NCBI RefSeq assembly: GCF_016107575.1
Contig: NZ_JABAST010000013.1
Span: 1 to 64,000 of the forward strand
Source: Psychrobacter faecalis
GTDB taxonomy: Bacteria > Pseudomonadota > Gammaproteobacteria > Pseudomonadales > Moraxellaceae
Direction: 5' to 3'
Length of the DNA stretch: 64,000 bases
Shown here: in pieces, positions 33,042 to 38,312 of the stretch
Layout of the letters: every line of letters begins with the position of its first letter
Numbering within the stretch: position 1 is the stretch's first letter
Position numbers and translations under genes: made by a program
The notes under the pieces: generated by a model
The model's input: only the letters and a program-made list of their open reading frames with translations
Database searches by the model: none
Told to the model about the DNA's origin: nothing

Positions 33042-33842
33042 CTACGCTTTATTGCCGCCAAAAGCCTTAGCAATCGCTAAAAAACTTTCTGCTTTTAGCG
33101 ATGCGCCGCCAACCAATGCCCCATCAATCATGCTATCAGCAGCAAAACTGTCGGCATTGTCAGCATTGACGCTACCACCGTATAAAACCGTTATGTTGTC
33201 TAATTCGCCATTGAAGCTCGCAAGGGTTTGCTTAATATGTTGATGTGTCGCACTTACTTCAGCGACGGTTGGTACTTTGCCCGTACCAATTGCCCAAACT
33301 GGCTCATAAGCGATGATTAAACGCTCTGACAAGTTTGTAGCAAGTTCAGGATTTTGTGCAAGTAAATCTTTAATCACCGCTAATTGCGCATCAATGACTG
33401 CCAGCGTTTCTTTGGCATCATACTGCGCTTGGGTTTCGCCAATGCAAAATATCACGCCTAAGTTTTGTGTGAGGGCGTGAGCCATTTTTTGCAATAAGCA
33501 ATCATGAGATTCTTGATGGTATTGACGGCGCTCAGAGTGTCCCAGTATCGTCCATGTTGCGCCAGTATCAGCAATTTGCTGCGCTGAACAATCACCGGTA
33601 TAAGCGCCGGTACTGGCACTATAGGCGCTTATATCTTGAGCGGCGCTCAGTATTGAACTACCTTTTAGCCGCTCACTGACAGCCGTCAAATGAATCAGGC
33701 TCGGGGCGATCATCAATTGACAATCAGCGTTATCAGGCTGCTCTTTTGTGCTAACAGCCATTAATAAGTCATCTAGTAGCGCCTTGACGTCATGGCTCGT
33801 CGCTGGATTCTGCTTCCAATTTCCAATTACCCAAGCTTGCAT
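33042..33842 (-). CDS. tpiA: Triose-phosphate isomerase
   Basis: Interconverts dihydroxyacetone phosphate and glyceraldehyde 3-phosphate. Motifs: VIGNWKQNP (substrate Asn/Lys), ILGHSERR (catalytic His), [15 protein letters not shown] (catalytic Glu and flexible loop) and [11 protein letters not shown]. The frame extends to 33875, but the methionine at 33842 starts the conserved [10 protein letters not shown], giving 266 residues. First gene of the large minus-strand cluster. Confidence 0.97.
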
Positions 33843-34231
33843 ACCTATATACCTTATCTTATCTATTGCTGCCAATATGGCTTATATGCGCGCAAGTATA
33901 ACAAATATTTCCTAAGTGCTATAGTTATAGTATGAGGCGCTCAAAGTTGGAACTGATTTTGCATAAAATTATTTTAAATAAGTATTTGGCACATTGACGT
34001 TTTTAGCAGATTAGTCATCTTATACGCTATATAAAGTCTTTTAACTCTAAAAAATTCCTATATCATTCTATTTATAGAAAATAAAACCAAGGCAATCAAT
34101 CATTTGTTTTTAGAATAAATGTTACTAATCAATGTAGCGATTATAAATAAGCTACTGGTGTTATATATAGTAGATGCTTTGGTTTCGGTAAAAAATACAG
34201 CCCATTTGGTATCACGCATAGAGAGGTCTTA
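33843..34231. other. Divergent intergenic region, tpiA / pilB
   Basis: 390 AT-rich bases with promoters of both genes expected. A TGGCAC near 33987 has no matching -12 element, so no sigma-54 promoter is claimed. No gene. Confidence 0.4.
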
Positions 34232-35941
34232 ATGTCTATCACAGCCAGTAAATATGGTGGTTTAGCGTAGCAGTTAATTAGCGAAGGCATCGTCAGCGAA
34301 GCGCATATGAAAACCGCGCAAACAGAATCACAACAGCAGAAAATGGGCTTGGTTCCCTATTTGGTTGACAATAAGCTGGCCAATGCTTATCAAGTAGCGC
34401 AGATGCTATCGCAAGCGTTTGGTGATCCTTTGTTTGATCTTGATGCCTTAAGCTCAGATGTCATTCCAAAAAACTTGGTCGATGAAAAAATCGTACGTAA
34501 GTTCAACGCCCTACCACTGTTTAAACGCGGGCAACGCTTATTTGTGGCATTGAGTGACCCGACCCGTATCGATGCCATCGACGCTATTGCCTTTAACTCG
34601 CGCCTGTCTATCGAGACTGTCGTCGTTGAAGAAGATAAGCTCAAAAAGCGTATTGAGAATCTGTACGCTGATACCATGCAAAGTTTTGATAGCTTTTCTG
34701 ACAGCGATTTAAATATTGGCTTTAATGAAAGCGAAGAAGACGAAGGCGAAACCAAACTTAGCGACGGCGTCGATGAAGCGCCCGTGGTGAAGTTTGTTAA
34801 TAAAATGTTGGTTGATGCCATTCGTATGGGCGCCTCGGACCTACATTTTGAACCTTATGAAAAAACCTATCGCGTGCGCTTTCGTGTCGATGGCGTCATG
34901 CAAAAAATGGCCAGTCCGCCGGTACAACTTGCGGGTAAAATTGCCGCGCGTCTAAAAGTCATGTCGCAAATGGACATCTCTGAGCGCCGTGTACCGCAAG
35001 ATGGTCGTATTAAGCTTAAAATCTCTAAAGACAAAGCCATCGATTTCCGCGTAAACTCCCTACCTACCTTATTTGGCGAAAAGCTGGTTTTACGTATTTT
35101 GGATCCATCATCTGCCATGCTTGGTATTGAAGCATTAGGTTATGAGCCCGACCAAAAAGAGATGTTTTTAGAAGCCTTACATAAGCCTCAAGGTATGCTG
35201 CTGATTACTGGTCCTACTGGTTCAGGTAAAACCGTCTCCCTTTATACCGGTATTAATATTTTAAATACTGGCGAGACCAATATCTCAACCGCCGAAGACC
35301 CCGTTGAGATTAATCTTGAAGGTATCAATCAGGTCAACGTTAACCCGAAAGTCGGTTTAACCTTTGCCAATGCGCTCAAATCATTCTTACGTCAAGATCC
35401 TGATATCGTCATGGTCGGTGAGATTCGTGACCTTGAAACGGCTGAGATTGCGATTAAAGCAGCACAAACTGGACATATGGTGCTGTCTACCCTGCATACC
35501 AATTCTGCCCCTGAAACCTTGACGCGTTTGCGCAATATGGGAGTTGCCTCATTTAACATTGCAACGTCAGTGAACTTGGTTATTGCCCAGCGATTGGCAA
35601 GACGTTTATGCAAAAATTGCAAAAAACCCATCAATATACCGCGCCAAAGCTTGCTTGAGCTTGGTTTTACCGATGCTGATTTAGACAACCCAGACAATGT
35701 CATTTATGAACCTATTGGCTGTAATGAATGCCGTGAAGGCTACAAAGGCCGTGTCGGTATTTATGAAGTGATGAAAGTCAGCCCCGATATTTCGCGCATT
35801 ATTATGGAAGATGGTAACGCCATAGATATCAAAGACGCTGCCCTTAAAAACGGCTTTAGAGATTTACGCCGCTCGGGTATTTTAAAGGTGCTGCAAGGGG
35901 TAACCAGTATTCAAGAAATGATGCGCGTGACTTCTGAATAA
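34232..35941 (+). pseudogene. pilB: Type IV pilus assembly ATPase PilB, with in-frame amber codon 13
   Basis: Hexameric ATPase that powers pilus extension. The natural start appears to be ATG 34232 with GAGAGG at ideal spacing, reading MSITASKYGGLA and then TAG at 34268-34270. The frame continues as QLISEGIVSEAH to an internal ATG at 34307, from which 544 residues are open. That part is complete: GspE N-domain, Walker A GPTGSGKT (302-309 counting from 34307), Asp and His boxes, and the CKNC/CNEC zinc motif. The internal ATG has no ribosome site. So it may be a nonsense allele, a sequencing error or an N-shortened but working protein. pilC and pilD follow. Confidence 0.8.
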
Positions 35942-36163: not shown

Positions 36164-37387
36164 ATGGCCAAAGCTAAAACCGACATGCTATTAGACTTTG
36201 TCTATGATGGAGTCAATCGGCGTGGGCAAAAAGTAAAAGGCGAAACCACCAGTCGTAGCTTGGAGTTGGCAAAAGCAACCTTGCGCAAACAAGGTATCAC
36301 CGTTAAAGCCATCAAGAAAAAACCCAAGCCTTTATACACCTTTAAAAAGTCTATTAAACCGATTGATATTGCTATTTTTGCGCGGCAGTTGGCAACTATG
36401 ATGAAAGCTGGCGTGCCATTAACCCAGTCTTTTGAGATTGTTGCTGATTCTCTTGATAACCCGAGCATGAAAGATTTGGTCTTACAAATAAAAGCCGATA
36501 TTGAAGCTGGTGGTACCTTTGCTTCAGCACTGCGTAAACATCCACGCTATTTTGATGACCTTTTTTGCTCGCTTGTTGATTCTGGCGAGCAGTCCGGTTC
36601 GTTAGAGACCATGCTAGAGCGGGTTGCAACCTATAAAGAAAAAAGTGAGCTGTTAAAAGCCAAAATTAAAAAAGCGATGAAATATCCTATCGCCGTTATT
36701 GTCGTTGCCATTATCGTCACTATTATTCTACTGGTTAAAGTTGTTCCTGTATTTGCCGATTTATTTGGTTCATTTGGTGCCGAACTACCTGCGTTTACTC
36801 AGATGGTAGTAGGGATGTCAGAATGGATGCAATCTTGGTGGTTTATTTTAATCGTACTGATTGGTGGCGCCGTCATTGGCTTTTCAGAAGCTAAAAAACG
36901 CTCTAAGAAGTTCCGTGATTTCTTAGACCGTGCGGTATTAAAAGCACCCATATTTGGCAATATTGCTTATCAAGCGGTTATCGCTCGCTTTGCGCGTACA
37001 TTATCGACCACTTTTGCTGCTGGTGTACCCCTGATTGATGCTTTAGATTCTACCGCTGGCGCTGCAAATAACGTAGTCTTTTATAACGCCATTCAGCAAA
37101 TAAAAAACGATGTTTCAACCGGTCAGCAATTGCAATTTTCGATACGCTCAACCAACTTATTCCCAAGTATGGCGATTCAAATGGTTGGTATTGGTGAAGA
37201 ATCAGGTAGCTTAGAAGAGATGCTCGATAAAGTTGCGGTCTATTACGAAAACGAAGTCGATAACGCTGTTGATGGTTTGACCAGCTTAATGGAGCCGTTA
37301 ATTATGGCGGTGCTCGGTGTATTGGTTGGCGGCTTAGTGATTGCCATGTATTTACCAATCTTCCAAATGGGCTCAGTGGTAGGCTAA
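36164..37387 (+). CDS. pilC: Type IV pilus inner-membrane platform protein PilC
   Basis: Polytopic platform protein that couples the PilB motor to pilin assembly. Two GspF domains are visible, each starting near FARQLATMMKAGVPLTQSF and FARTLSTTFAAGVPLIDAL. Three main hydrophobic segments lie near residues 168-190, 215-235 and 375-400. The frame reaches back to 36125; ATG 36164 has AAGGG eight bases upstream and starts the typical MAKAKTDML, giving 407 residues. It lies between pilB and pilD. Confidence 0.95.
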   Translation: MAKAKTDMLLDFVYDGVNRRGQKVKGETTSRSLELAKATLRKQGITVKAIKKKPKPLYTFKKSIKPIDIAIFARQLATMMKAGVPLTQSFEIVADSLDNPSMKDLVLQIKADIEAGGTFASALRKHPRYFDDLFCSLVDSGEQSGSLETMLERVATYKEKSELLKAKIKKAMKYPIAVIVVAIIVTIILLVKVVPVFADLFGSFGAELPAFTQMVVGMSEWMQSWWFILIVLIGGAVIGFSEAKKRSKKFRDFLDRAVLKAPIFGNIAYQAVIARFARTLSTTFAAGVPLIDALDSTAGAANNVVFYNAIQQIKNDVSTGQQLQFSIRSTNLFPSMAIQMVGIGEESGSLEEMLDKVAVYYENEVDNAVDGLTSLMEPLIMAVLGVLVGGLVIAMYLPIFQMGSVVG

Positions 37388-37412: not shown

Positions 37413-38312
37413 ATGCAATTTCTTCAGTTATTACAAGAAAATATGACACTCGCTTTAATTATTTTTGGTCTACTTGGCCTCTGTGTCGGCAGCTTTTTAA
37501 ATGTGGTAATTCATCGGACACCGCTTATGATGTTAACGGCTTGGCGGCAAGAATGTAGCCAGTTTATGGCTGAGCAAGCAGACATGCCACCTGAACATAC
37601 GCGACCATTATCAGATATCGTCGCTGCTGATACTCCCATCACACTAAGCACACCTGCTTCACGCTGTCCGCACTGCGCCCATAAAATAAAGTGGTATGAA
37701 AACATCCCTTTAATAAGCTGGCTTATATTACGCGGGCGCTGCTCAGACTGTAAAGCTGCTATCGGACTGCGTTATCCTATTGTTGAGCTGGTAACTGCTC
37801 TGCTATCTATGTTGGTCATTTATCAGTTTGGCGTCAGCGCCGCAGGATTATCAGCATTGATTTTGGTCTGGACGCTGGTTGCTTTAACGGGTATCGATTT
37901 TGATACCCAGCTATTGCCTGACCGCCTGACCTTTCCTTTAGCGGGCTTAGGATTGGCGGTAAATTCGCAAGGCTGGTTTGTCTCACCTACGCAGTCAATC
38001 TGGGGACTTTTACTTGGCTTTTTATCTTTGTGGGTCGTGGTAAAAATCTTTTATTTCATTACGAAAAAACACGGCATGGGACAAGGCGATTTTAAATTAC
38101 TAGCCGTCTTGGGTGCTTGGCTTGGGCCTATGATGTTGCCACTCATTATCTTGCTCTCCTCCCTATTAGGTTCTATCGTCGGGATTATTCTGATGAAAAA
38201 ACAAGGAGAAAGTCGTCCTTTTGCTTTTGGTCCTTATATCGCCATTGCTGGTATCATTGCATTATTATACGGCCCAGATATCGTCAATTGGTATTTAGGA
38301 ATGTACGCTTAA
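37413..38312 (+). CDS. pilD: Prepilin peptidase / N-methyltransferase PilD
   Basis: Cuts and N-methylates prepilins at the inner membrane. The cytoplasmic domain has two CxxC pairs (CPHC and CSDC) with KWYENIPLISWLILRGRC-type sequence. The aspartyl-protease residues are in GIDFDTQLLPD and GMGQGDFK. About eight transmembrane segments. At 299 residues, complete. It starts 25 bases after pilC with an AAGGAAAA ribosome site. Confidence 0.96.
   Translation: MQFLQLLQENMTLALIIFGLLGLCVGSFLNVVIHRTPLMMLTAWRQECSQFMAEQADMPPEHTRPLSDIVAADTPITLSTPASRCPHCAHKIKWYENIPLISWLILRGRCSDCKAAIGLRYPIVELVTALLSMLVIYQFGVSAAGLSALILVWTLVALTGIDFDTQLLPDRLTFPLAGLGLAVNSQGWFVSPTQSIWGLLLGFLSLWVVVKIFYFITKKHGMGQGDFKLLAVLGAWLGPMMLPLIILLSSLLGSIVGIILMKKQGESRPFAFGPYIAIAGIIALLYGPDIVNWYLGMYA

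Follow-up and report, generated by a model that had tools for sequence, protein, structure and literature searches.

At position 34,232 of the DNA analysed here (64,000 nucleotides, hereafter the window, on contig 11 of a Psychrobacter draft genome of 3.08 Mb in 106 contigs, 99.94% complete) begins a pilB gene that is interrupted at its 13th codon (Table 1). The start codon is ATG 34232-34234, codon 13 is the TAG and codon 14 is CAG; the next in-frame methionine codon, ATG 34307, lies 12 codons past the stop. Beyond the TAG the frame is unbroken up to TAA 35939-35941, with no frameshift. Read through the stop, the product is PilB from end to end, matching TIGR02538 with 849.9 bits over profile positions 2-563 of 564 (the cut-off of this equivalog model is 675.65 bits), in agreement with the initial annotation, which had seen an intact PilB beyond the stop. 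The protein from the internal methionine scores above the cut-off as well (839.3 bits). Besides this full-length similarity, the gene order expected of a pilB operon is kept, with pilC and pilD directly downstream; the names of these two genes come from the sequence and the initial annotation rather than from a family search, and their frames, already described as intact, proved to be so in comparison with relatives. What sets the gene apart from the pilB of other genomes is that the frame opened by the conserved start is cut short: of 94 genomes compared, only this one has a stop at codon 13. No Rfam element was found at 33500-34700.

Table 1. Features of the interrupted pilB gene and its operon, with positions in the window.
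Feature	Position	Strand	Remark
Shine-Dalgarno site of pilB (AGAGAGGT)	34220..34227	+	pairing -7.6 kcal/mol; near relatives have a similar site
pilB stub: conserved start ATG, 12 codons, TAG 34268-34270	34232..34270	+	homologous codon is a sense codon in 93/93 alignable genus genomes
pilB remainder, 544 aa from an internal Met without ribosome site	34307..35941	+	ATPase (T2SSE) and MshEN matches intact
pilC, platform protein, intact	36164..37387	+	start set by alignment to G024
pilD, prepilin peptidase, intact	37413..38312	+	

The two candidate starts differ strongly in their predicted pairing with the anti-Shine-Dalgarno sequence, with -7.6 kcal/mol ahead of 34232 versus -0.5 kcal/mol ahead of 34307. 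Among 33 other gene starts that we chose from the window, the median was -4.2 kcal/mol; four reached -7.6 or lower, and seven were at -0.5 or weaker. For 137 internal methionine codons the median was -2.2 kcal/mol, and 107 of them paired at least as strongly as -0.5. ATG 34307 has no ribosome site, yet seven of the 33 chosen starts score no better. Both observations of the initial annotation, a strong ribosome site in front of a PilB-like N-terminus at 34232 and none at the internal ATG, are borne out by these values and by the head of the protein, which aligns with its relatives from residue 1.

We then compared codon 13 across 105 genomes of the genus, the present one among them. Alignment of the codon was possible for 93 of the other 104; of the remaining 11, four had no match at 1e-150, five matched only from residue 172 or later, and two were cut by a contig end. 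In all 93 it is a sense codon: CAG in 61, CAC in 12, CAT in nine, CAA in seven, GAG in two, and CTA and CGT in one each. The TAG is thus, as far as these alignments indicate, private to this genome among the 94 compared, and the commonest codon in relatives is the CAG from which it had been proposed to lie a single step away. The nearest relatives compared share about 86% DNA identity around pilB. The methionine at codon 26 (34307) is kept in 91 of the 93 relatives, and 92 have an in-frame ATG 7-13 codons ahead of codon 13, the exception being L202. According to the initial annotation, a mutation would be refuted if all homologs started at the internal methionine; they do not, and this methionine is ruled out as the ancestral start. 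Of the four options that had been left side by side (nonsense mutation, sequencing error, readthrough, reinitiation), the first is best supported, with a sense codon in every alignable relative and homologs that start upstream of the internal methionine. Broken pilB copies occur in two other genus records: that of G048 has six stops within the matched frame, that of G075 a break of the frame. The two assemblies are only 84-85% complete, and the breaks look like errors.

To date the stop, changes were counted on the branch of this genome and on those of five sister genomes, with up to seven outgroups and with pilB counted from codon 14. On its own branch, pilB gained 5-7 amino-acid versus 38-44 silent changes, compared with 0-6 versus 32-41 on the sister branches. 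Besides codon 13, only three of 569 PilB residues are unique to this genome against 29 relatives. This strong purifying selection downstream of the TAG points to a recent stop; judged by the substitution pattern, selection on pilB would have been strong until lately. A stop that is missing in relatives, a homologous start upstream of it and little further decay of the gene together give the picture of a recent pseudogene. For pilC, 5-8 amino-acid changes on this branch stand against 1-5 on the sisters, and for pilD 7-10 against 3-7; the controls show no excess (tpiA, 7-10 against 6-12; secG, 0 against 0-1). The mild excess shared by the three pil genes may reflect slightly relaxed selection or chance. 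A recent change had already been proposed on the grounds that pilC and pilD are intact. While the recency stands, on the basis of the selection just described, these grounds are weak, as pilD also serves the type II secretion system (T2SS).

Further lesions were found elsewhere in the pilus system. On contig C16, pilW stops after 113 codons and is joined straight to the 3' part of a pilin gene without leader (C16:12280-12944; locus L283:9280-9944). In the relative G030, pilW encodes 358 aa (PF16074), and the two points fused here are about 7.6 kb apart. The intervening DNA holds the remainder of pilW as well as genes for a PilX_N protein (269 aa), a protein of 1343 aa, two ComP-like pilins and one more pilin, and the cluster of G061 resembles it. 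In the assembly, this is a deletion of about 7.6 kb relative to G030, which by comparison would have taken the end of pilW, pilX, the gene of the 1343-aa protein and the pilin genes. The genes flanking the deletion are collinear with those of relatives. The 1343-aa protein, which we take to be PilY1 from its size, its place and our general knowledge of such proteins, had no match in Pfam, NCBIfam or PDB sequences, and a PilY1-like protein was not found in the compared stretches of this genome, to which the search was limited. Over the compared region of C16, matches were obtained for 39 of the 45 G030 ORFs and 33 of the 44 G061 ORFs. Outside the pilus locus, two short G030 ORFs (94 and 88 aa) have stops here, one G061 ORF has a stop at its very start, and one gene per relative was matched over 86-87% without a stop; all of these are presumably over-called ORFs or starts. 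Also on C16 (C16:27063-28286, L283/L284) is a gene whose counterpart in G061 (C3:407390-408484) adjoins the pilus locus; here it lies about 19 kb farther along.

When the whole genome was searched with the N-terminal motif of pilins, nine matches (one below the cut-off) were obtained, versus 12-13 in each of nine relatives. These nine comprise four T2SS pseudopilin genes, one FimT/GspH-like gene, one PilV-like gene and three fragments, the GspH and PilV matches falling below their NCBIfam cut-offs. The FimT- and PilV-like genes are open yet diverged (33-65% identity). A further FimT-like gene, on contig C9, is split by a MITE-like insert of 199 bp with perfect inverted ends of 21 bp (C9:15475-15673; locus L286:9475-9673), whereas in three relatives (L295, L296 and L297) both halves are present at the same place without the insert. 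With the pilin of G023 as query, just a 29-residue match was obtained in this genome, in a T2SS pseudopilin-like protein that we presumptively name GspG. A search for pilA with PF00114 was not helpful: its sole match was a 309-aa protein unlike a pilin, and a frame of the same length was matched in G061. As PF00114 also found nothing in G024, G030 and G017, although PF07963 reveals pilin clusters there, the model is insensitive in this group.

The rest of the machine is largely preserved. The frames of pilM and pilQ (TIGR01175, TIGR02515) and of pilN, pilO and pilP (PF05137, PF04350, PF04351) are open, and two ATPases of the PilT/PilU family (TIGR01420) are intact, being 97.7 and 97.9% identical to those of G030. 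A second extension motor, TfpB, is likewise intact (1013.9 bits at a cut-off of 850); it exceeds the family cut-off in 87 of the 105 genus genomes (86 of the 104 others and this one). In eight other genomes of 97-100% completeness (G031, G037, G038, G039, G044, G046, G055 and G073), no PilB exceeds the TIGR02538 cut-off and no TfpB reaches E <= 1e-200, which suggests that both motors were lost or diverged together there. On contig C21 (L001:23-934), a protein of OrfB type, presumably an IS200/IS605-type OrfB (TnpB-like), is encoded upstream of the T2SS ATPase gene gspE.

Could the TAG be a single-base error of sequencing or assembly, with pilB intact in the organism? The genome is a draft, the site is one letter away from the commonest codon in relatives, and error-like broken copies of pilB occur in the two less complete genus records mentioned above. 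On the other hand, the assembly is rated almost complete, and pilB contains no frameshift. When non-overlapping ORFs from the corresponding region of two relatives (61 and 63, with 52 matched in each case) were compared with the window, pilB was the only matched gene with a stop inside the gene proper; other flagged stops (at 1939 and 15718 in both comparisons, at 1975/1981 in one) sit upstream of the starts of window genes. With 51 other matched genes per relative free of such stops, an elevated error rate throughout the window is rejected as the cause. Separate structural lesions in the pilus genes moreover render a true loss likelier beforehand, and we regard an error at this one site as unlikely.

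Bypass of the stop fares no better. Full-length PilB would be made if the TAG were read as an amino acid, by suppression or readthrough, and the sequence UAG-CAG-UUA at 34268-34276 does fit the CARYYA context. This context is described for plant viruses and other eukaryotic translation (PMC4132726). The same CAG-TTA at codons 14-15 is found in the near relatives L039 and L109, where codon 13 is a sense codon, so the CARYYA-like context is inherited and its fit is in all likelihood a coincidence that comes about through a conserved Gln-Leu. Besides, no TAG stands at this codon in any of the 93 relatives, and in the window TAG serves as a regular stop, ending eight of 44 genes (35 end in TAA and one in TGA). 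Release factor 1 is encoded by an intact prfA. Among the 40 tRNA places listed, all of them read with ARAGORN, none has the anticodon CTA of an amber suppressor; 150 of 183 candidates were scored, and the list, which lacks Ile-GAT and Ala-TGC, may be incomplete. Readthrough is a highly improbable explanation. A working PilB of 544 residues might instead arise from ribosomes that end at codon 13 and re-initiate at ATG 34307. In E. coli lacI, early amber mutations are known to be followed by such restarts. Here the methionine is conserved and very close to the stop, neither the ATPase core nor the MshEN match is affected, the shortened protein is still recognised as PilB, and weak ribosome sites are found at other genes of the window too. 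Against restart stand the pairing of a mere -0.5 kcal/mol and the loss of residues 9-25 of the conserved N1D, for which the alignment to the solved domain from Xanthomonas (7LKO) begins at residue 9. According to PMC11656802, the N1D of PilB likely contacts the stator and, in some species, PilZ. The pilin genes whose products such a PilB would assemble are, furthermore, missing from their locus. We thus consider a functional restart distinctly improbable, and programmed readthrough or functional restart of pilB unlikely as a whole. Literature searches on restart after amber mutations, Psychrobacter pili, pilB nonsense mutations or phase variation, and readthrough returned nothing on this case among the matches listed.

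The TAG is in our opinion very probably a real and recent pseudogenising nonsense mutation in pilB, private among the compared genomes, in a Psychrobacter with a decaying type IVa pilus system. Ribosomes would start at 34232 and be released at codon 13 by release factor 1; restart at 34307 would yield no more than traces of the 544-residue PilB, devoid of its first 25 residues. As seen in the assembly, independent lesions elsewhere have cost the genome pilin genes, most of the minor pilins and the gene that occupies the place of PilY1. In the absence of a pilus, nothing would keep pilB from gaining such a stop. The most economical account appears to be that this lineage has lost its type IV pilus through deletion at the pilin locus, the pilB amber and the insert in a pilin-like gene, in any order. 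The proposal that the pilB mutation removes pili finds no support in that form, as the structural locus of the pilus is itself broken in the assembly and the second motor TfpB is intact.

What speaks against loss by decay is that pilM, pilN, pilO, pilP and pilQ as well as pilT and pilU are still intact. Any decay must therefore be young, unless some of the machine has been retained for another use. In the latter case, PilMNOPQ, PilC, PilT/U, TfpB, a restarted PilB and the leftover FimT/PilV-like pilins might serve, without the main pilins, as a short pseudopilus or in DNA uptake, with the amber tuning PilB down in favour of TfpB; to us, such a reuse seems very far-fetched. A comparable two-motor system is that of Acinetobacter baylyi, where, as stated in PMC8213720, transformation is retained upon deletion of pilB alone since TfpB remains and provides partial cover. 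TfpB is above its family cut-off in our genome as well. Unlike in A. baylyi, PilB is interrupted and pilin genes are missing here, so two-motor function is not to be assumed.

For the preferred reading, a recent nonsense mutation within a decaying pilus system, the closest parallel comes from phage-resistant Pseudomonas aeruginosa, for which PMC13170266 gives a frameshift and a missense mutation in pilB, nonsense mutations in pilQ, pilO, pilA and pilW, and a 7,559-bp deletion from pilS to pilY1. The kinds of lesions and the genes concerned are the same; those mutants were selected in the laboratory, whereas here several lesions are united in one natural genome. As phage selection in laboratory Pseudomonas yields the same sorts of lesions, pressure by pilus-using phages is, by analogy, a plausible cause; simple disuse of the pilus is another candidate.

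In annotation pipelines, this pilB would probably pass for a normal gene that starts at 34307. The amber codon alone is ordinary, and it is the combination of lesions that is of modest interest; taken together, they look like the ordinary loss of a surface appendage rather than a new genetic trick. The genome apparently offers a natural snapshot of the loss of a surface machine, in which the pilin locus is deleted and the extension motor stopped, with the alignment complex, the secretin and both retraction motors intact.
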